Source of the DNA: Macrocybe gigantea
Taxonomy: Eukaryota; Basidiomycota; Agaricomycetes; Agaricales; Callistosporiaceae
Assembly: GCA_011319805.1 (NCBI GenBank)
Contig: SJRY01000229.1
Coordinates: forward strand, 620,001 to 684,000
Length of the DNA: 64,000 nucleotides
Reading direction: 5' to 3'
The translations under genes were made by a program, and so were the position numbers. Below the pieces are notes generated by a model. It searched no databases. It was not told where the DNA came from and saw only the letters and a list, made by a program, of their open reading frames with translations. Below, in pieces: positions 5,038 through 49,838 of this stretch (the stretch's first letter is position 1; every line of letters begins with the position of its first letter).

Positions 5038-7924
5038 TCATAGGAAACCAACGCCAAGAGGATCGGAGCTACTCCCAGACGTGGACGGTTTCACTGGTTC
5101 CTTGTCAACATCTGCACCTGTCTTCGCGGAACTTGGACTGGCGCCGGCCCGAGGTAATGGATGTGCAACATTGGGATCAACAGGGAGCGGGGTACCCAGC
5201 TGACGCGGGGAATCCACTAAAGACGGCTTCGTAGACGGCGATCGCACTGACCCCCAGGGGTTTTGTTGGAGAGACGCCAACGAGGATTCTGCAGGTTCAG
5301 GCCGAGCCCAGGGATTCTCAGCCTCGAGGGAAAGCGGCTCAATACTTCTGGAAACGGACATCGTTTCCTCGCCCCAACTGCTGAGCATCTCGCGTCCTTT
5401 CAGCTCCGCAGTCTTGGATAATGGGTCGTTCTCTTCAGTTAGAGTACTCCGTAGATCCTTAGCAAAACCGACATAAGCATCTTGCACCACTGAGAACGCA
5501 GTCGAGGCATTTGAGGAAAACCGGCCCCAAACCGATTTAAGTCCCGCTCCTGACAAAAGCTCTGGTGGTTTCGTCCGTAGCTTACTGGGCGAATGGGAAG
5601 GCGAAGGTAAAACTTCCCTTGGCGGCCGAGGTGATGGCGCAGACGATGACGCAGAAGGTGACCATACCGATTGCTGTTTGGTAATAGTTTCCTCGCTCGG
5701 AGTCGTAATGCATTCCGACGAGGTCGATATGATTGGGGTCTTGGTTCCACCAACGAGCAAGGACTTGGATGAGGATGATGTTGGAAGTTGAATAGCTGTT
5801 GAGGATTCTGACCCGAGCGGTATGGAATCTTCTTCTGTACTGTCAACCGGGGCGACGAGCTCTGCACCTTGCGCGGGAATACTGACTACCCTCCCGTTCA
5901 TCTCCTCGTCTGTACGCCCATAAAGTTGATGCCAAAACCTCACGTCTCTCGGGTTTGGCAGTAGGACACCCATATCGGCATCCGAAGCGCGATTCTTTGG
6001 ATCGTCTAATGATGAATCGTACTCCGGATTACGATTCAATTCCATCTCCGCGGGAGTGTTGAAAAAATCCCAGATGCTGATTGTCCGTTCACAGGGTGGT
6101 GGCCCGCCGTCACCAACTTTGCGATCTTTTTCAGAATTGAAGAGGAAGGTGCCGAACTGACATGAATAGAGATGATAGTAGAGTTGACGGAGGAACCGCT
6201 CGTTGAACTCAAATCGCGTGGGGAACTGCCGTTGAACCTGCCGAACGGACTCTAGAAATTGATGGAAAATAGGACTCGTCTCCTTCAGATGGTGTTGCGA
6301 TGCAAAGCGATTTTGCACCGAAGCCAAAAAGGCCTGCGCAGCGTCTGCACCGCTTCCTGTTCCAGTCCCTTCTGTAGGTGATAAAAAGAACTTTTCGGAA
6401 GACAGGTGGCCGCAACGATCCAAGAACTTGTGACCGTACGAAAGCCAGTCTTTTTCCACCAGTATCTGAAAGCCGCGCATGGTTCGATAGAAAGGATCTA
6501 GACAAAGTTGCGACATGGCTGATAGTTGGGAGGTGCGATCCCAGCCATCCGAGCAATGTATCAACACATGCGACGAGTTGATGTGCACGTTCCGCGTTAT
6601 CAACAGCGTGCCTTCCAGGATCGCAGATATGTGTCGCAGCCAACCAGAGCGTCGGAGAGCTTGGCGGTCCAGGACCCGCAACGAACTGAGTTGTTCGGAA
6701 AGGTCGTTATTAATGCTGGCTAGTAGGCTGTCCGCGTCTCTGAGAGCCTCCACAACCTTCGCGAGAGACTCCCGCATTGTGTGGATGTGATCGATTCCCA
6801 AGTACGCTTTCTTACCCTCTCTGTAGTGATCCATGTTCTCTGTTCCCGCCCCTTTCGCCGTGTTGGCGACGGCGTTTGTAGTGGGTCTAGCGTCGATGAT
6901 CAGATTTGTGGCCGTAGCTCCGTATACCGGTATAGTGGACGCTCGGCTCTCTGGTGAGTAGTGTGACTGAAAAATAGCCTCAATCAGTTTTTCGTCTTGA
7001 ATTGATCTGTTCTGCGTCAGGCCAACCATGGGTTGGCTTGACCGCGTCAAGCTGCCCTAAAAATGACATGAGCCAAATTGACGCAGTCGACTCTATTGCA
7101 AAATTACGTACATAATTGGCCCAATGTAAGTATGTAAGCACGGGAATGCGGGACTTGCTCCTATACCTTGAAGCGTATTGTAGAGTAGTGTCGCTAATTT
7201 TGGTCGGTACAACCAGCCTCGCAGGATATGTGGGACAGAACTGGAGTCACTATGAATCATTGGCGAAATGGCAAGAATGAAATAGCACGAACGCACAGCA
7301 TAATCTTTGTTGATGTCAGTAAAACGCCAGGCTTTGGAACGGGTTCCGACACCCATCCGGCCAAACTCCTCTCTTGGAGAGTACAGCGACCATCCGTCAC
7401 TCGTTGGAAGCGCTGGGTTTGGTCGATAAAAGAATGCATATAGTTGTGTGATGGATGCTATAAAAACGAGGGTTCGACGGTCTTATCGACCGGGGACGCA
7501 AGTTTTGATCAGGCTTACTAGCAACCGTCAGTTCCTTGACGCTCTCAAACACATCCACAGTATCCGAGTCGGAATCCAACACCAGAGAAAACGTCTCGAA
7601 GGTGCGTGTGTGGAAAGTAAGAGGACATTGCCCTTGCAGCGTCTGCGGAAGACGCGTGACTAGCGAAATGAGCGGATACGGTACCTCGCTGGGGATGAGC
7701 CGCGAGTGCATAGAGAGCGAGAAGGATGTCTTACCCACATCTCCCCTTGATTCTCGCCGTCATAATGAAAGATGAGATGATGAGCCGTTAGATGGAGCGT
7801 GCCGAGCTGCGTCGTTCCAGCTTTTGTGCAGGCGACCCGTTCGACCTTTAGCATGTACTTAGTTACAAGACTTATATAAAATAGAGGTAGAATGACATGC
7901 CTTGGACACACGTATTGCGTCCAT
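5038..7924 (-). CDS. ymr1: Myotubularin-family phosphoinositide 3-phosphatase
   Basis: Dephosphorylates PI3P/PI(3,5)P2 on endosomal membranes. The start at 7924 (MDAIRVSK) leads into a PH-GRAM module (LGTLHLTAHHLIFHYDG, later VPYPLISLVTRLP). The catalytic domain has CPTYPARLVVPTKISD and the P-loop HVLIHCSDGWDRTSQLSAM with the intact CX5R motif (Cys and Arg in CSDGWDR). A long, Ser/Pro-rich, low-complexity C-terminus of about 250 residues follows, probably disordered. About 880 residues, longer than yeast Ymr1 mainly because of that tail. The first intron appears to use a GC...AG donor (around 7900); other introns are GT...AG. The region just upstream of the start also carries an open frame in another register (see findings). 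All catalytic residues I can judge are present. Confidence 0.9.
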
Positions 7925-37921: not shown

Positions 37922-38925
37922 TTGCTCTTTACACCGTTGTGTTATGTTCGCATTTGAAGGTAAGCCACGAGGGCAGCCACCATCAATTACAGTCCTTCCT
38001 ATTTACTCGGTGAACGCGGAAAAGGGAGAAAGTGGACGAAACAGGAGCTTCAGATTATGTCACGTTCTTATGATGTGATCAGAGGAGACAGACGTTATCG
38101 TTGATTTGTTCTTGATATCATAACTTAATGATGCGCTGACAACATTGTTAACGATGCATAGACTACTGTATTGTTTTTGCAAACGGTGGCTGCATGGCTC
38201 GTCCAGATCCTTACGACAGCTTTATAACATCATATGCCCATCTCGTGAATTCCCGAGTCTCAATATCTTCCACTAAATCATCAGCATGTAGGAATCCGGT
38301 GGTTCATGCGTGGCAGATCGCGGGCCGGAAAACTGTTGTATTCCGCTGCAAATATATATGTTCGACTTGAAGCTAAATTTGAGGCTACATAAAACACACA
38401 CTTCTGATGCAAAGTCAAAGGCGGCTTCGCCTGACTTGGGATGTGGTAAATGCGAAAACAGACGTGTGCGCAACGACGGTGACTGTTGCGCCACCGATGT
38501 ATAACCGAAGCTATGTAGCACCACTCGGTTGCATTCGCACTTGGGATAAAGGTTCCATCTGGAAAGCACATGCAGGATCCATAGGAGTGATGGATTGAAC
38601 ACTGTGCATGTGCCCGCAGGTATTCATTCCACTGTCATGCGAAAAGACCTCCGCGCGGATCTTCCCTTAATCAACTGACACTGCTTAGGTATAAGAAGTT
38701 TGTGAGTGTTCTCTGGAAGTTGACGCTGTCTGCTGGCATTAGTTGGATCCCGTAACTCTTTCTTCGCATGGATAGAGGAATTAGCCAAGTTTTATTGCTC
38801 GAAGGAATGCGATATATACAGAGTGACTGTTAAATTTACAAATGAATGATAGACGGACAGAGTGCATTGCTTGGCCATGCAAGCTTGATATAAATACTCA
38901 GGAAACGAATGAATGCCGCAGGTGA
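37922..38925. other. Intergenic, convergent 3' flanks
   Basis: About 1.0 kb between DUF3074 copy 2 and the end of the adenylation/ferric-reductase gene. No supported gene; A/T-rich. Confidence 0.4.
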
Positions 38926-41900
38926 TCACGAATCCCAGATGGCACCGAAGGCGGGAATACCACGACTCATCATGCCATACACGACTTTTTCTGTGAGTGT
39001 CTGGTTGGAGATGATGACGACGGCTTCGGCATCGAAATCCTTGACTAGACGGTAAGTCAATTTAACCATGTCAGGCTTTCCATTTTGTCGGGTGTCTGGT
39101 GCAGTTCATTAAACAAATGTGAGGGTGCACAGAGCAAGATAAGAGCGCACTATATATAACCGCGTCTGGGGCTGCTTCAAGGATAGTATCGACGAGCTTG
39201 TCGCCAAAAGTCTCGCGCACATTCGGTGCAGTCCAGAGGACACGCATGGGAATCTTCTTTTGCAGGATAGCGGGGGTGCAGGGACCGATGCCTGATCCAG
39301 TGGCAACGACAACCAAACGGCGGAACATGGGTGCAATGCGCATGACGCCGTAGGTCGGGATACCTCGGACCCAGATCTTTGTCGGAGGATTCTGGATCTG
39401 CTTGATGGTCCAGTCTCCGGCTCTGCTGACAACGAGCGAGAATCCGGTCTTGCCAGGTTCAGGAATAGTGGCGAAACTGTGCCACTCAGTCAAAGGAGAC
39501 TCCGAAAGTCTGACGAAGCTCCCAGCTCCGGGAGTGACTGGATGAAATGAGGGAAAATATCAACGATAGAAAAAGAGGCTAAACTAACCATAGTCGAAGT
39601 ACATGCGGACCGCATGATTAGAAAGCTTCTCGACCGCACGTTGACTTTGCGGAGCCTGAGCCAGGGAAGGATGATCGAAGCTGATCATTCTCGTGAAATG
39701 GTGCATAACGAATGTGTAGAAATAAGGTTTACCAGTCAGAATAACCACGAGCCAGAATGGAATGGAATGTTTCAATGCGTCGGCAAGAGACACATCCTGA
39801 GGCTTATAATCATTGGTGAGGAGAACGACCTGACCAAGGCATAAGAATGAGACGTCAACAGATGTGTGACTATGATTGCATACCTGCGCCCAGACGAAAG
39901 CGGTTGTCAACCAGCCAAGGAAACGGTGAGTTGCCTCAAAGTTATCATGGAACTTCTTCCGCAGCTTCGGGTAGGCAAAGACAAGGATCATCAAGAGGAA
40001 AAAGAGAATACAGCATGTGACGGCCAAGGTTGGGACTGATGCCTGTGTGGAAACTTGTCAACAGTGGACGTGACGATGGAGGGAAGATAACTGACTCCGA
40101 CTCCATGCATGACCTCTCTGGCAGCCTGGGCAGTGAAGAGAATCAACCACAACACTCCAGAAACGCCACAACCAGAGTGCAGTCCGCCAATGTGGTACAC
40201 TCGGGCACACACCCTTCGGATAGAGATTGGCCAACTGGGGAAAGAAATATACTAGGGCTATTGATTCAAATACGGAAAGAGACTCACGATCTGGGAACGG
40301 AACAGAAAACGGTGAAGAATGCGTCAATGACGTAGTCCTGGCGCATCAAATGGCTACAAAAAGATTTGCGACCACAATCTGACCAATCTGGGCAGAGTTA
40401 GCGCCTTTGACACAGACGGAGATGAAAACCCCCAAGTTGGTGAGGAAGACAATGCCAAAGAGTCGGCGATAGAGATACATTATTTGGTGCCTCAGGTTCC
40501 GGACAAATCGTCCCTGGGTTTTGTCTGGTAGGATCTCCTGCTCGTAGCCCGCCCACACCGAAGTCTGTGCTTCAAGAGATGATAGCTCGATCTTCTTCTC
40601 AACCGGAACAGTGACTAGAGTGTCGTAGGATCGAAGGAACCACCGTATTAATCGTTGTGGTCGATTCAGTGGTAACGGACCTGTCCACCCATATTTTTTC
40701 ATTGTCTGGCTTCTCCTGTTCGAAAGGAACGGTTTTGGTTTGGTGGGGCTGTTGCATCGTCATCGCTGTTATCTCCATGCGAGCAGGGGCAGCGGCCATT
40801 TGATCTCGGGCAAGCTTTTCCAGTGCTCTCTTATCTACCTTGCCATTTCTGAGAGAATGTTAGAATCAGAATGGTGCTCGTAGAAACAATCATCAGCTTA
40901 CGCTGTTTCCGGGAACTTGTCTAATCTAACGAATTTCGTGGGGACAGCGTAATATGGTTGGACACGGGAAGCAGCCACCTTGACATTGTCGGTGGATATT
41001 GTGGCTGGTGCATAAAAACCCCAGAGCTCTCGGTCTATTAGGATTGCGGTTGCAACTTTGACACCGGGACACGACTACATCATGTGAGCATCTGCATACA
41101 TGTTCGATTAATAAATTCCCACCTCAAGTGCTGCGGCAACGCCATCGAGTTCAACTCGGAAACCCTTTATAGACAACAATTGAGCGGTCTTCATTGCATG
41201 AGCAGATGTGCTTACATTGACTTTGACTTGATGATCCACTCGTCCAAGATGTTCCAAGCTACCTTCAGGGAACCATCGCCTATCCGAGGATGTAAGATAT
41301 GATATCAGGCCAATTCTTATAAAAGCACGTGCCCAAGGTCTCCAGTGTTGAACATCATCGACCTTTATGTATTGTCAGGATGCTTTACCTCAGCTGCGAA
41401 AATGGATCGTCTCACCCGTCATCGAGGAAGGGGTCGCGCTTGTACTTCTCTGCGGATTTCTCAGGGAGATTCAAATAGCCTCGAGTGATGCCTGCACCAC
41501 CAGCCCACATAATACCCATCTCGCCGATCTTGACAGGTTTCATGTTCTCGTCGAGAACATAGGTGGTGTTATTGGGCGTAGGTCCTCCGATTCCCAGGGT
41601 TCCGCCGGGTTTGTAGAGGTGCATGGTGTTCACGATGGTAATCTTAATCAGTGAGATCAGTGAAAATGAGGGAATACAGCGGTGCGATACCTACTTCTGT
41701 AGGTCCACAGCAATTATAGAATTTGACGTGTCGGGACCAACTGTCCGCAAGCGCTTCAAGGCGATTAAGATGAACGACATGTGCTAATGCAATCCAAGAT
41801 CTCTCTCACCTTTAGGGCAAGGCTCCCCAGCTACAGCGACAACTTTGATTGTCGGATAATCGGTGGGGTTATGAGGTGCCAACATGGATGGCGTGGCGAC

Positions 41901-44900
41901 GACGACGTCCACAGTTTTCATGACTGCACGCCATTCTTTGGAGGTCTTTCCCCTGAGGCAGAGAGTGCTACCGTTGCACATACTTCCAAGGATTTCCTGG
42001 GCAGCCATTAAGTTAGCCTAGACGTCACTGTTTCTTTGTCTGATCCAAGGCATACCCAGGCAGCCATATCGAATGAGATATTCATGAGCTGGGAAATGCG
42101 GGAACCCGGACTGAGGCCCAAATTTCCAGGAGCAATGCAAACGACTGGCAAGCAAAGATGTGGGTGCCGATATTAAAAGTCAGCAAGAAAGCCTTACGAT
42201 TGGTAATATTCTTGTGCATTACATCGACACCCTTTGGCACTCCTGTCGTACCTGGTGTTACTCGTCAGACTCGCATTACTTTTTTTGAGGGTTGGTAACG
42301 CACCACTGGTATAGATGATATATGCACTGTCATTGGTCGTAGTCAAATTCTCCGGTTTGGTGCAGTGCCCGTTCGCGACTTCGCAAATCGAATCTTCAAG
42401 GCAGATAGTAGGAGTACCGATGACTCGGTTGATGAACTTGCGAAGGACCAAGACCACGGATGATCCAGAGTCCCTCAAAGCGTGGTTGAGCGTCTTGTCG
42501 GCGACAACGTTGCCATCGAGAGGAACGTATGCGCCGCCCGCTTTTAGAATACCCAGAATTCCGACAACCATGAAAATGGAGCGCTCGACGAGCAAACAAA
42601 CGCGAGAGCCTGGAGCGACGCCTTGAACACGCAAACGGGCCGCAAGACAGTTAGACTGGCGATCCAGCTCGGCATAGGTGATTTTGTTTCCGAAGTCCTC
42701 GACTGCGATGAGATTCGGATACGTTGTTGCGTGGAACTCGAATGCCTCGTGAACGGTCCCGAAAGCGGGTTTAATCACGGAACCCATGCCAAATTTGTTA
42801 AAGAGCGCCCGGTCCGTGGGCGAGAGATCCTGAAGAACGTCTTGTTCGAATATGCTAACCGACGGAGGTGGAGCAGCCAAAGAATCAAGAGCCATTTTTT
42901 CGAGCATCCTTTTGTCGACCTTGCCATTACTAAGTGCTGGTAAGTTGCTGTCTTTGAGCGTAGGAGAAGCTATACTCACGCGGTCTCCGGAAGTCTGTCT
43001 AGTTTCAAAAACTTCGTGGGGACTGCGTAGTAGGGCTGGACGCGGGACGCCGCTGCCTTGACATCTTCAAATGGGATCGTAGAGGGCGTATAGATTCCCC
43101 ACAGCTCTCTGTTGATGAGCATCGCCTGTGCCACCTTTACACCAGGACATGTCTTGAATAGGTCCATTAGTATTCGGCAAGATCTAGTTGCGGGTGTACT
43201 ACCTCTAGGGCGGCTGCCACACCATCAAGTTCGACCCGGAATCCCTAAAGAGCATTGAAAATGAGCCAGATCAAACCAAATAGTGGGTAGCCTACATTGA
43301 TTTTCACTTGATGGTCGACCCGACCCAGAGGTTCCAGGCTTCCTTTAGGAAACCATCGGCTATGGAAGGTGTGAATCACGAGATATCTTCGTGTTAATAA
43401 CTGGACATTTACCCTAAGTCACCAGTGTTGAACATCATAGATCTAGAGAAATGTCAGAATTGTGAGATTGTCACTGTTTCGCGATCGACTCACCCATCAT
43501 CGAGGAAAGGATCGCGCTTATATTTTTCGGCAGTTTTGTCCGGTAAGTTCAAGTAGCCACGAGTGATACCTGCACCGCCAGCCCACATGACACCCATTTC
43601 TCCAATTTTGACGGGCTTCAAATTCTCGTCGAGGACATAAACAGTGTTGTTCGGTGTTGGTCCGCCAATGCCAAGATCGGTGCCAGGGGTATGGAGGTGC
43701 ATGGTGTTGACGATGGTGATCTATATGAAACGCTCAGCAGTTGCTATAGTGCACGTATCAGAGACGACGTACCTCTGTGGGTCCGCAACAATTGTAGAAG
43801 GTGACCTGCTTGCCCCAGTTATCCGCGAGGGCTAATTTATATTATGAGGCCGGACATGTTTAACGGGCTTGACACTCACCTTTCGGGCACGGTTCACCAG
43901 CAACGGCGACGGTCTTGATGGTCGGGTAATCAGCAGGGTTATGGGGAGCCAACATCGAGGGTGTAGAAACCACGACGTCTACCGTCTTCATGACTGCCTT
44001 CCATTCCTTGGAAGTCTTGCCTCTAGACACAAGGTGCTTCCATTGCACAGACTCCCAAGAATTTCCTGTAGCAAACCATCTTAGCATATTGTCAGAGGTC
44101 AAAACACGACAGCCATTCACCCAAGCAGCCATGTCGAACGATATGTTCATTAACTGAGAAATACGAGAGCCAGGACGTAATCCGAGATTTCCAGGAGCAA
44201 TGCACACCACTAAAAAGATATTTATTTATTTACGACAAAGACGTAAAGCTCCGAACTCACAGTTCGTGACATTGCGGTGCATGACGTCGACGCCCTTGGG
44301 GACTCCAGTAGTTCCTATTCCATGATCAGTCGCCCGGATACCAGGATATGAGGGATAGAACGCACCACTTGTGTAAATTATGTAGGCGCTATCACTAGCG
44401 GTAGCCAAGTCCTGGGGTTTGATGCAGTGGGAAGAAGGAATGTGACAAATAGCGTCTTCAAGGCAGAGAACGGGGATGTTATTAACGCGGTCAGTGAACT
44501 TGCGAAGAGTCAGGGCCAGCGAAGACCCAGAATCCTTCAAGGCGTGGTTGAGTGTCTTGTCGGCAACGACGTTTCCGTCCAGGGGAACATAAGCGGCTCC
44601 TGCTTTGAGGATACCGACAATGCCGACCACCATCAAGATGGAACGCTCGACAAGGAGACAAACACGAGAGCCGGAGGCGACGCCCTGAGCGCGAAGGCGA
44701 GCAGCGAGACAGTTGGCCTGGCGGTCCAGCTCCGCATAACTGATCTTGTGCTGGAAGTCTTCCACGGCGATTAGGCCGGGAATGGTCTTCGCATGGTGTT
44801 CGAAGGCCTGGTGGACGGTTTTGAAGGGGAGATCTACTTTCTCGCCCCGTCCAAACTTGTTGAACAGGGCTCGATCGGCGTCGGAAAGAGAGTGAAGCAA

Positions 44901-44927
44901 GTTTTGGTTAAAGAGGGGGGATGCCAT
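38926..44927 (-). CDS. Double adenylation-domain / membrane ferric-reductase-like fusion (NRPS-like)
   Basis: About 1,600 residues, some 20 introns. Order: adenylation domain 1 (start 44927; RALFNKFGRGEKVDLPF, SYAELDRQANCLAARLRAQG, AYIIYTSG, DMAAW-EILGS, FYNCCGPTE), ending NGKVDKR in the exon at 42900-42979. It reads on in frame into adenylation domain 2 with the same motifs, ending NGKVDKRALEKLARDQM. Then a charged linker, GWTGPLPLNRPQR, RNLRHQIMYLYRRLFG, several membrane helices (ANLFVAI; TLAVTCCILFFLLMILVFAY; HRFLGWLTTAFVWAQ), an FAD-site-like LTEWHSFATI and an NAD(P) loop VVVATGSGIGPCTP; ends FGAIWDS. No carrier-protein (GxDS) or condensation domain seen. Likely activates a carboxylic acid and passes it to a membrane reductase module; substrate unknown. 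Frame breaks as read: near 44024 (domain 1), T6 at 40694-40699, A3 at 40348-40350. Confidence 0.8.
40820..44927 (-). repeat. Tandemly duplicated adenylation domains within one gene
   Basis: The two halves repeat the same exon order and intron positions (for example both break after KRDPFLDDG) and the same motifs. In the 64-residue block ending RDPFLDDG (43490-43681 versus 41412-41603) only about half a dozen residues differ by eye, so the duplication is recent relative to the family. Domain 1 spans roughly 42960-44927, domain 2 roughly 40820-42950. Confidence 0.8.
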
Positions 44928-46837
44928 CGCTGCTGCTCGCTCTGTGCTCGTCTGGCCGAAAGGGCTGAGGTGCTGATGAGATTTCCGAAAAATCTCGGCG
45001 GTTTTTATGCCGGGACATGAGTGGGTATTCGCACTTGACTACGAGCACGGACAAGGCGCAAACTTGTTTAGAAAGGCGTGCATAGTTTTGCAACTACAAG
45101 ACGGATGACGTGAGGCTACTCAGAGACGGAGCGGCGACACAGGTCCCTTGATGGACATGTGGAAAGTGGCATTGCCATCGCAAAGTAACAGTATAGAAGT
45201 TCTGGTGGGGCGGATCATGTCTATGCAGAGCAACATGGCTCAAAACGCCTGACTCACGTCAATGGTGCCTTGCAATCACGGAGACGGGTCAAATAAGTTT
45301 GGCCGCGCGACCAGGGAAATTCAAGTGGAACGCGATGGACAGCCACGGTCCATAGTTAAGCGGCTAAAAAGATGGTTTTTATGTCGACGACTGTCGTCGC
45401 TAGAGTTTACTTCTGCAAGACTAAGAAATCGAGCGCATAGTCAATTCTTTGTACCAGGGGATTATTACGATGCATGCCCGAGGACAAACCTATGAGCAGT
45501 CCTCGAATCTCGATATCCGAGTACACATCTGCTGTATTGTCGACTTGAGCCATGACACGTTGACGTTCCATCTCGGTGTGGCGGGTGGGGTGAGCGTCCT
45601 ATCTTAGAATGGGTTATTTACCTTTGTGGACAACAATAATACAGGCTTACTAATATTCTCATAGTTCTTGAACCAGTGTCGACCGTTAAGCTGAACTTGA
45701 TTAACTGATCACTCAATCCGTTCGTACCATTACTGGATAACGGACGTTTCGTTCAACGCAGAATACTCGACATAAAAAAATTCTTTATACATCGCATCAA
45801 TTCCGTGCATCCTATGTATCATACGTACCAGTACCGGAGCACTGCATCTGCCGAGATGGCTCAACGTGTAAGCCTTCTATTTCCCCGTTCAGGGTCAAAC
45901 GAGGATCTCCATCGTCGCTTGCCATTCCGGGCGCCGAGTCCAAGGTGCAAATAGAAGTACGAGCATGTGTTTCCCCGACTCCGAATTCCAAATTCAGTAT
46001 TCTCGCCAATCGTGATTGTCGGTCTACAGTGGGTGGGTTGCCCAGTTATCCTGATGAACCCACAGAACAGTTGCTCATGTGTCCACATTTGTCTTCATGA
46101 AATCGCGTTGCGGTTCTCGAACCTCAAAACCGAGATGTTGACCAGGGGCAACACGTCAAGCAATGCCCACATGTTCCAGCTTCACAGTGACGCATCTTGA
46201 CTTCGGATTTTGTCTGGCATTGTCTGGCAACGAAGACGATCAGCCAAAACTGTAGCAAGACCTCGTGTTTCACCCAATTCACGCCATTAAATCAAGTCCT
46301 TGCTCATCGCTGATGCATATGCAGGATTCCAAAACGAGGTGCATCGGCCGCTTGCCCGGAGATTCTCTTCTTGAGCTGACATATCCTGAAACGATCCATG
46401 CTGCATATCTGTAGTGATTGGAGGAAAAGCGGTGGGGGCCATGTACTTATGGCCCTTTAGGACAATTTCCTTGTGTAACGGTAAATGTCGAGAAGGAACC
46501 CCCAAGTGTCGGGCTGCCCGCGTCGTTATGAATGCAAGCAGCAAGGATAACAGCATCAACCGATCAAGGCGAGTTGGCATGCGGAAGATGCCGACAAGTT
46601 CGGCAGTCCAGTGTTCTTGTCAAACAAGATCAAATGCAATAGGACAACTGTAAGGCCTTCCACACACGCAGTGGACAGAGCGCCCAATCACAAGTATTAA
46701 TTCCAACAAATACGGGAGACATTCATACGACGCTAATAAAACGCTAAGAGTACAGGACGATTCCATTCATGGAATTCGATCGAAACATTCCTCCTTGGCC
46801 GAACCGCTTTTCCGCACAAAACGGGATCCGGCCCAAT
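44928..46837. other. Gene-poor interval upstream of the adenylation fusion gene
   Basis: About 1.9 kb. Apart from one weak small-secreted-protein candidate (46287-46580) I see no gene. Confidence 0.4.
46287..46580 (-). CDS. Possible small secreted protein (weak candidate)
   Basis: 97-codon single-exon frame starting MPTRLDRLMLLSLLLAFITT, which looks like a signal peptide, followed by ~70 residues without cysteine pairs or repeats and ending YASAMSKDLI. No family recognised. Could be a chance frame; the signal-peptide-like start is the only support. Confidence 0.25.
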   Translation of the reverse strand: MPTRLDRLMLLSLLLAFITTRAARHLGVPSRHLPLHKEIVLKGHKYMAPTAFPPITTDMQHGSFQDMSAQEENLRASGRCTSFWNPAYASAMSKDLI

Positions 46838-48221
46838 TCATTCCTCTTTGTTCTCCCCTTTCTCTTCAGAGCCTTTCTTGTGCACTCTGAACCAATAAGC
46901 CTCATCCTCTCGAGCAGGGACGGCCTCAATTGGACCGGGAATAGTGTTAGTTGCCTTGGTCAAGTATTTCTCCCTCTCTGCTCGGATCACGTCGAGGTCG
47001 TGCGAGACAAGGCCATGGCCGGCCACAGGACCATAGTACGAAATACCGGCGAGCGATGCAATGATGCTGGTTCGTCGTGGCACGCAAGATCCGATTCAGT
47101 AAGTTATATTCTGTCCAAATCTTGGGTTCAACGAAGCACTGACCATGACCCGACCAAAAGCGTCAAGTAAAATCGATACTGAGAAAACCACTTTGGTGCT
47201 GAACGACGAAAACAAAAAGATATGGATCAGTTAATCGCCATCGATAACATTTGGGCGTGAGACTTACCCCATCCAATGGACGTGACCCTGGAGTCAGCGT
47301 ACCACAACGCGTAAAGCCAACCCACTGAGCAATGAGTGCTCCAGTGGGCTGCAGAGCTAGGGTCGGCCAGGCGAACAATACAGGAGCAGCTCCGAGCGCC
47401 AGACGCTTGTAACCCTTTTCCCCACCGTAGCCGGCGAACTCCATTCCCCAGTGTAGGGCACCTGCATTTTTGATATCGGAGCCAGGAAGATATACGAAAG
47501 CGACCGAGAAAAATCCGCATGATCAGGACCAAGGAACCGACGAGACAAAAAGGAAGACCGAGTTCAAACTTACCAAGGAAGGAAAGCATGACGGCACCGT
47601 AGGTAACCTGAATGTTCAACGCCTGGTCGAGGAAGGTGAGCGCAATGCCCGGATCTATATCAGTAGCCTGCCCCATCGCGGCCATTCCTGCTGTATGTGC
47701 AAGATATATCGTCGTCCCAGATGTCAATAGATAGGGGAGTCCTCCTTTAACCAGCGGGCTTGGTCAATGACATTTTAATCGGCCAAATGAAAGGGACTAC
47801 AGACCGACAAGACCGAATGCAAACACGGGCTCAGGGACTTCAGATGCAATCGTTCCAGTGATGGAGAACTATGCAACGCGCATCAGAATTCTTCCTAGGC
47901 GGAAGACAATAAGATGAGTTGGAAGCCACTTACGAAGGAGGAACCGGCTTTAGCGGGCACGATGGTGTCATTGGTTGCGCTCGCGCCCGCGATGGCCTTG
48001 GCAAGATCCGCCGCGGAGCTTCCGACCTCTTCTTTGATGTTGGTCGCGGCTTGCTCGAGCGTTTGGCTCCCGGGCCTGTTCGAAACACTGCTTGCGACGG
48101 TTCTGGCATGAAGCAGCGTCGAGTTCAGGACCGCGGGGCGAGCTAAACGCGGAGGCCGGAAAGCGAATGGGGTCGCACGGAGGGCGACTGTGCGCAAGAG
48201 CGGGCGACAGAGGACATTCAT
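46838..48221 (-). CDS. TMEM69 / DUF3429 mitochondrial multi-pass membrane protein
   Basis: The start at 48221 gives an Arg/Ala/Ser-rich leader (MNVLCRPLLRTVALRATPF) typical of mitochondrial import. The membrane part has PVFAFGLVGGLPYLLTS, TYGAVMLSFLGALHWGMEFA, LALGAAPVLFAWPTLAL, ALWYADSRVTSIGW and APKWFSQYRFYLTLLVG, the DUF3429 pattern. The C-terminus is charged and ends KGSEEKGENKEE. Function unknown; TMEM69 relatives are inner-membrane proteins. About 340 residues. As read, ALIAQWVGFT and ALWYADSRVTS are in different frames (around 47310-47312; one base missing), with no intron between them. Confidence 0.82.
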
Positions 48222-48492
48222 CGTCGAGGAGAGCGGTTGTGAGCGTGGAGCTGTCGTCGGCGTGAGTTCTTAGACCTCTCCTGAAAATGACGTCATAGAT
48301 GAACTAAAAGGATGGACGGTATATTTAAAAAAACTACTTGTACAGCACTAACGAGCCCAACGAGAGGCCTATTATACCAGGCACCCCCATTTTAAGATAT
48401 AAGTAATTGAACAAATTCGAATAGCAGCAGGCATAGTGTAGTCGTCAACGCGTTCTCATTTTTTCTTGTTTTTTTCTATAGTCGTGTCTTCG

Positions 48493-49838
48493 TCACTCTT
48501 CAAGTGGCAGGAGGCGTATGATTCTATTCTTCTTCACTATCTGGCCCTCCGTTCCAAAGTATCTGGTCGTTTGGAAGCTCCAGTGAAGCGACCTGCATAA
48601 GAAATCATTAGCCCAAGAAGAGCCTCGTAGGCATGACTAGAGTCCACGTACCCGACAATCCAATCTCGCAATCCCTGGATGTATCGTGTCACCATATCGT
48701 CAACTTCAGGTCCCCAGGACGGGACCTCCTTGGTCTTTTGTACAAAGTCGTCAATCGTCTTCCTGCACAGCTCGCCGACAAAGTCACCGCGCTCTGCAAA
48801 TCGTGACCGTGATCTTTCATCAAGATCACGATCATGTTGTGGGTGTCGCCCCGTGCTTGCTCGACATTGTACGAGAAGATGTCCTACACACCCCTTGCTG
48901 TCAGAAAACAAGAACGTTGCATTCGAGACCGACACTCACGTTGGACCAGGTCACCAGGTCGTTGGTCAACTGGTTGAGAGCGGAGATTGTGGGATCCTCA
49001 ACAACGTAGTCCGGCAAGTCAATATCCGCTGCATATCTGGCACGCAATTTAGAACGCAAACGTATAAAATTAGACGAGACATCACACTGACTCTATTAAT
49101 GCCCAGCAAGGCTTGCAGCCTGAGAGCAACGTGTCAGGCCTCTTCAAAGCATTTTCGGCAAGATAGACGCAACATACCAGACGTATCCCTGCGGATATCG
49201 ATGTAAGTGTTGAGGTCGGGAATCTTCCCCTGGTCTCGGAGCTTGGACTGAATGGCGACGGCGTTGAAGAACATGTGCAGGGTCTCGCAGAAACGGGACT
49301 GGCAACCAGGCCCGGCTTCAGGGATGCACCGGCTCCAGAAGCTGTAATGACAGAACGATGAGTCCCGGCTATTTCGGAAGACGGGTCAGTGAAACGTACT
49401 CTCTAGCGAGCTTGCCCGGGTTCGGCTCTCCTGGGACGGGATACTTGGTATGCCAAAGTGCGTTCATAACGACGTTAGAGAGTGTGTGCGTCTCCCTGGT
49501 CATCATCTTGTCCGAGATGTTATCCCTAATCGAAATCTGGATCAGCAATTTTTGATACCGACAACGAAGCGGAAGACTCACAGGTGGAACAGATAGTTCA
49601 TAAAATCGGAAACGACGCGGAGTCGCTCCGGGGTGGTCCAGTTGTAGCAGAAGGCGGTGAGCTCACCGGCCTGCAGACCCCAAAGCGCCTTGCGCTGCTT
49701 TGGGTTCAGGTCCGGGCAGCTCGTGTCGAGCCATGAGACAGACTGGAATGCGACGTCGTCGCCTTCAGGATGGTACTTGAGCTCAAAGTTACAGTGCCCG
49801 ACTAGGTCAGGAAGGACAAAGTGGTCGGCGACGGGCAT
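48493..49838 (-). CDS. Sesquiterpene synthase (class I terpene cyclase)
   Basis: Cyclises farnesyl diphosphate to a sesquiterpene. The start at 49838 (MPVADHFVLPDLVGHC) has an ideal context (CCACCATG); an upstream in-frame ATG lies 12 nt before. The metal-binding acidic motif is LDNISDKMMTRETHTLSN (D-N-x-x-D form common in Agaricomycetes), the NSE triad is VTWSNDIFSYNVEQARGD, and the RY pair is HWSFQTTRYFGTEGQ. About 345 residues, seven exons or so; ends RLLPLEE at 48493. One base appears missing near 48785, between HGHDLQSAV and FVGELCRKTIDDF, so the enzyme is truncated as read. Product cannot be predicted from sequence. It sits 3.6 kb upstream of the adenylation fusion, with the DUF3429 gene between. 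Confidence 0.9.

Follow-up and report, generated by a model that had tools for sequence, protein, structure and literature searches.

A tandemly doubled adenylation domain in a predicted NPS12/TmpB-type oxidoreductase gene of Macrocybe gigantea

Fungal proteins of the NPS12 family combine a single adenylation (A) domain with a ferric-reductase-like domain (PMC2823734), and exactly one A domain is reported for NPS12/TmpB proteins in the available text of PMC2823734 and PMC4804170. A 64,000-nucleotide stretch of Macrocybe gigantea contig SJRY01000229.1, hereafter the window, contains a gene of this type in which two A domains (A1 and A2) precede one reductase. This raises the question of whether both domains belong to one polypeptide, whether the doubled layout is a family trait or a local oddity, and what two activating domains without a carrier might do. 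The gene is best read as an NPS12/TmpB-type oxidoreductase with its A domain doubled in tandem, giving two equal sites for the same amino acid beside one reductase, a reading to which we assign a probability of about 0.62.

Gene structure and likeness of the two adenylation domains

The gene lies on the minus strand between an ATG starting at 44927 and a stop codon ending at 38926, in agreement with the limits given in a preliminary description of the locus, and encodes, in order, A1, a linker, A2, a second linker and a membrane reductase with flavin adenine dinucleotide (FAD) and NAD(P)H domains (Table 1). The exon model was built from splice sites and alignment of the two halves, with the reductase exons read by eye and the GT and AG ends checked for the six introns of the 38926..40848 part. 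Two PF00501 (AMP-binding) stretches were recovered by Pfam search, joined in frame without a stop, and the single polypeptide proposed in the preliminary description is by far the best reading. The supposed exon at 42194-42979 from which it had been proposed is open from the NGKVDKR of A1 to the RALFNKFG of A2, but lies inside a stop-to-stop frame (42194-43066), the true exon being 42929-42304; the preceding intron has its 5' end at position 42979, which had been taken as a splice-junction end of this exon. The introns flanking the joining exon (42979-42930 and 42303-42252) are placed as in the other domain.

A1 and A2 each contain ten introns of 48-59 bases, all ten at matching positions, and the exon lengths are equal in eight of the ten pairs (54, 89, 59, 227, 30, 64, 42 and 173 bases). 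The length difference between the first exons is accounted for by the linker carried by the A2 copy, and the fourth exon measures 186 bases in A1 and 187 in A2. Intron 7 of A2 (41332-41280) has a GC donor, its A1 counterpart a GT donor; a second contig of this genome (C152, described below) does not differ here. Given these matching introns and equal exon lengths, together with 82.5% amino-acid identity over 462 positions, the likeness is, on the sequence evidence, not due to chance. As a whole A domain is matched with its introns, the gene arose by tandem duplication of that unit. The join spans 43 residues from the DKR of A1 to the FNKFG of A2.

No carrier or condensation domain was found by Pfam domain searches in the window gene or three relatives, as had been noted from the sequence, and none of the nine PF00550 carrier matches reported for the genome lies on the contig of the window (C228). 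The gene thus lacks the carrier (T) and condensation (C) domains required of a canonical nonribosomal peptide synthetase (NRPS) module. Its adenylation domains are of the NRPS type with the catalytic A10 lysine, and six of six core motifs are kept in both A1 and A2, the shifted part of A1 being masked.

At four-fold sites A1 and A2 agree at 57 of 179 positions, with 50.3 expected by chance, which indicates that synonymous sites are saturated; the DNA identity of their exons is 68-83% and their nonsynonymous divergence (dN) is 0.14. Saturation beside 82.5% amino-acid identity argues that purifying selection has long acted on each copy. Furthermore, the predicted specificity code, DMWVAACIVK, is the same in A1 and A2 at all ten positions. 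Its leading Asp and the A10 Lys presumably fit an alpha-amino acid substrate.

Relatives with the doubled layout and descent of the domains

Among the 120 proteins listed of 6127 in a search with A1-A2, nine contain two A-domain segments and 111 contain one, in line with the single A domain stated for NPS12-like relatives in the preliminary description and with PMC2823734; the reductase is matched in 118 of the 120. A second search (120 listed of 7583) yielded one more A-A-reductase protein, P0241 of Tephrocybe rancida, among eight newly numbered proteins. The layout is therefore found, among the matches listed, in at least ten proteins in the databases, spread over seven related species of mushroom, namely Hypsizygus marmoreus, Lyophyllum atratum and Asterophora parasitica (two each) and Blastosporella zonata, Tricholoma furcatifolium, Sphagnurus paluster and T. 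rancida (one each), all with the domain order of the window gene. As such, the doubled A domain is, judged by architecture, a trait of a group of related mushrooms and no local oddity, which settles the choice between family and novelty posed in the preliminary description. NCBI places Sphagnurus in the Lyophyllaceae and T. furcatifolium in the Tricholomataceae; the latter groups with Lyophyllaceae in the myotubularin tree considered below.

In the nine A-A relatives compared (all but that of Tephrocybe) the fusion point is as in the window, with 44-48 residues between DKR and FNKFG. A1 and A2 codes are identical in all five A-A proteins readable at all ten positions, and P0005-P0009 show no disagreement at readable positions; the commonest codes among 131 domains are DMWIAACIVK (50) and DMWIAASIVK (32). 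The gene models of P0007, P0008 and P0009 contain A1 only in part. TIGR01733 scores above cut-off in P0001, P0002 and P0013, and the single-A relatives P0010-P0015 share 70-77% identity with the A2 domain of the window. Two proteins with three A domains (P0242 and P0243) were set aside, as they have carrier domains and only 33-37% identity. Of the 28 matches reported for this genome, none is a single-A NPS12 gene. Reductase-only relatives occur in the same genome at C16:2990-4128 and C245:224480-225617, their retrieved flanks giving no A-domain match, and resemble TmpA of Aspergillus in this respect. In the databases the A-A-reductase proteins carry hypothetical or wrong names. Public records label P0001, P0003 and P0015, which are A-A-reductase and NPS12-type proteins, as subunit 'C' or 'D' of 'Linear gramicidin synthase'. 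P0011, P0012 and P0241 are annotated as fusions of an NPS12-type protein to SET-domain or glycosylphosphatidylinositol (GPI)-ethanolamine transferase-like sequence, which are probably gene-model errors.

Two A-domain trees were built, the second with P0241 added; neither includes the short A1 fragment of P0009. All A-A domains group in a single clade (support 97/87 in the first tree and 95/90 in the second), within which the A1 domains of the relatives form one clade (98/98 and 97/98) and their A2 domains another (95/97 and 91/97), while A1 and A2 of the window are sisters (100/99). A single ancient duplication followed by plain descent was rejected, both for the A1s together (p 0.0024, and 0.0005 with P0241) and for the A2s together (p 0.0026 and 0.001). 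The sister relationship in the window and the rejected monophyly of A1s or A2s therefore call for either a second duplication in the window lineage or an early homogenisation by gene conversion, between which the sequences leave the balance about even. A single event followed by conversion is favoured by the similar fusion point (43 versus 44-48 residues) and by the one clade of all A-A domains. A second duplication is favoured by the absence of a remaining A1 or A2 signature: 12 residues are common to A1 and A2 of the window only, with one site for and one against orthology.

It also counts for conversion that homogenisation may occur in the A-A family, since the reductase halves of paralogues are 98.7% (P0001/P0003, Hypsizygus) and 98.0% (P0002/P0009, L. 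atratum) identical, against only 82-88% for their A domains; this contrast could stem from homogenisation of the reductases or from a swap of A domains. In the Asterophora paralogues the A1 parts are 97.5% alike over 237 positions and the A2 parts 84.0%. The reductase tree, from which P0066 is missing, splits the A-A reductases in its best topology, but a single clade is not rejected (p 0.23).

Frame interruptions and the surrounding locus

The reading frame of the gene is broken near 44024, 40633, 40345 and 39631, the last three places being judged by comparison with the proteins of relatives. Spliced A1 shifts frame in exon 4, and the frame is open if the preceding intron is retained. Contig C152 of the same genome (45455 bases) is largely alignable to the window and differs from it inside the gene by three substitutions and six length differences; besides missing three of the interruptions, C152 shows three other length differences there. 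The three interruptions absent from C152 (Table 1) look like assembly errors. Over 38785-49798, a stretch picked after inspecting the list of differences, there are six substitutions and 20 length-difference events, 17 of them of one base, and over all 38243 aligned bases 1078 substitutions and 167 such events. Since substitutions are almost lacking in this stretch yet one-base length differences are many, we take most of the interruptions to be consensus errors. A pseudogene is likewise not favoured, given that length differences exceed substitutions and that three interruptions are absent from C152.

The A1-linker-A2 order recurs on C152, and between 40633 and 44024 the two contigs do not differ in length. 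This order and the low DNA identity of the A1 and A2 exons rule out an assembly duplication, so that the collapse or duplication artefact considered in the preliminary description was not borne out. The window and C152 are ~5-6% different over 9.9-32 kb, and have only the six substitutions in 38785-49798; this low difference could be accounted for by an identical tract, by a switch of haplotype or by a contig that is chimeric.

Table 1. Features of the window (coordinates on the 64,000-nucleotide stretch)
Feature	Position	Strand	Remarks
A-A-reductase gene, NPS12/TmpB type	38926..44927	-	ATG at 44927, stop codon ending 38926; homologues over A1-A2 part
A1, 10 exons and 10 introns	42930..44927	-	PF00501; core motifs
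A1 exons 1-5	44927-44366, 44314-44261, 44209-44121, 44065-43880, 43831-43773	-	
A1 exons 6-10	43720-43494, 43442-43413, 43359-43296, 43244-43203, 43152-42980	-	
Joining exon: A1 end (NGKVDKR), linker, A2 start, no stop	42304..42929	-	
A2, introns at A1 sites; last motif NGKVDKR in following exon	40902..42929	-	PF00501; core motifs
A2 end, Pro/Thr-rich linker, membrane part, FAD and NAD(P)H domains	38926..40848	-	
Reductase-part exons 1-4	40848-40288, 40234-40096, 40042-39884, 39829-39733	-	
Reductase-part exons 5-7	39680-39589, 39537-39151, 39095-38926	-	
Frame interruption, A1 exon 4 (one base short of A2 exon)	44024	-	Absent from C152
Frame interruption between A2 linker and membrane part	40633	-	Absent from C152
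Frame interruption in membrane part (approximate place)	40345	-	In window and C152 alike
Frame interruption before FAD domain	39631	-	Absent from C152
Myotubularin-type phosphatase gene	5041..7056	-	In relatives, homologues and NPS12-type genes seem to lie on shared contigs

Linkage of myotubularin and NPS12-type genes, judged from equal-length contigs or close locus tags in listings, seems present in Hypsizygus, Blastosporella, Tephrocybe, Tricholomella and T. furcatifolium, and in L. atratum the two genes seem to share a 4.7-Mb contig. The linked NPS12-type gene is single-A in Tricholomella and T. furcatifolium. In the myotubularin tree the window protein falls in a clade (97/98) with Collybia nuda, Lyophyllaceae and metagenome proteins but outside the Lyophyllaceae; a grouping of the window with Lyophyllaceae alone is not rejected (p 0.19).

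Putative function, alternatives and comparison with known systems

The C-terminal half of the gene comprises a membrane part and an FAD/NAD(P)H domain, its pieces sharing 65-82% identity with nine A-A proteins. A structural model of the relative P0009 (mean predicted local distance difference test score, pLDDT, 62.7) has the overall fold of NADPH oxidase (NOX)/ferric reductase. NOX proteins hold two haems through paired histidines of helices 3 and 5 that are spaced 13-14 residues apart, whereas conserved histidines in the window-gene family are 5 and 7 residues apart.

The likeliest arrangement is a pair of functional sites, both for the same amino acid, next to a single NOX-like reductase. 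The single amino-acid adenylation domain of an NPS12/TmpB-type gene would have been duplicated in tandem within the gene, after which A1 and A2 may each convert one and the same alpha-amino acid into its aminoacyl-adenylate at the cytosolic face. Electrons would pass from NAD(P)H to FAD and perhaps one haem close to where activation takes place. The amino acid, either activated or joined in pairs, would undergo reduction or oxidation and leave as a small molecule with no carrier domain involved. With two equal sites of activation for each reductase, the enzyme would suit a product of two identical units.

Several points weigh against this reading. The deposited gene has no clean reading frame, and the interruption near 40345, common to both contigs, counts against consensus error; with four interruptions, one of them in both contigs, the function of the window copy itself is uncertain. 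The positions of the code were assigned by hand on GrsA numbering, and identical codes are no proof of identical substrates. Furthermore, the confidence of the reductase model is modest, the histidine spacing of NOX is not found among the conserved histidines, and the joining in pairs is guessed solely from there being two domains. An activity for any A-A member did not turn up in literature searches, and we know of none.

The alternative that fares best, which we regard as possible though clearly less probable, is that the doubling is structural, replacing a homodimer contact, raising local activation capacity or anchoring a partner, with no special product chemistry. It agrees with the identical codes and with the short join in the window and the nine relatives, and no data point to dimeric chemistry; none of the tests made here tells against it. 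More speculative, and rather improbable, is a scheme in which the A-A layout arose twice by separate tandem duplication, in the window lineage and in the Lyophyllaceae, because two equal sites next to one NOX-like reductase would permit two identical activated amino acids to be joined without a carrier and reduced to a dimer such as a pyrazine or cyclic dipeptide.

That one copy is a redundant passenger, retained or decaying without activity of its own, was suggested in the preliminary description and is improbable. Window A1 is interrupted in exon 4 and the gene models of P0005-P0009 lack part of A1, but conservation extends to both domains despite saturation at synonymous sites, the A1 of relatives keeps its motifs and A10 lysine wherever the gene model covers them, and gaps strike A2 as well (motif A8 in P0004, motif A7 in P0006); the A1 interruption is, moreover, absent from C152, where length differences exceed substitutions. 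The activation of two different amino acids, also suggested earlier, to give a mixed product is slightly more doubtful still: A1 and A2 do differ outside the ten code positions, as their 82.5% identity shows, but the code positions are the same wherever readable. Finally, separate genes for A1 and A2-reductase, or an artefactual locus, are very improbable, for despite the frame interruptions and a methionine near the A1 end that could start A2, an open exon spans the junction, C152 has the same order, the exons of A1 and A2 are only 68-83% alike and at least ten annotated A-A proteins exist elsewhere among the matches listed.

A doubling with equal pockets that selection has kept is unusual. 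NPS12-type proteins are widespread in mushrooms, and a natural version with two A domains and one kind of predicted pocket provides a handle on their chemistry. It separates the stoichiometry of activation from reduction, and it leads one to expect a dimeric product or else a role that is purely structural. The comparison also exposes the misnaming of some NPS12-type proteins in public records.

Among known systems, the closest are NPS12, TmpB and TmpL, which the window gene resembles in A-domain type, linker, reductase and the lack of carrier and condensation domains. These have one A domain, however, and the window gene has two in tandem, so that it is a variant rather than a plain NPS12/TmpB member; no description of a doubled A domain in a protein of this type turned up in literature searches. 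According to the available text, TmpB is required for normal conidiation and has been proposed to activate and oxidise a hydrophobic amino acid (PMC4804170), and TmpL has six membrane helices and an FAD/NAD(P) part that binds flavin (PMC2766074); neither product is identified in these portions of the two papers. The NOX/ferric reductase/STEAP superfamily shares its membrane and FAD/NAD fold with the modelled relative of the window gene, as far as the model can be relied on. A further parallel may be drawn with the A-T-R adenylate-forming reductases (Lys2, CAR), which couple carboxylic-acid activation to a redox domain as the window gene would, although no carrier was found here and the reductase half instead matches NOX-type membrane proteins.
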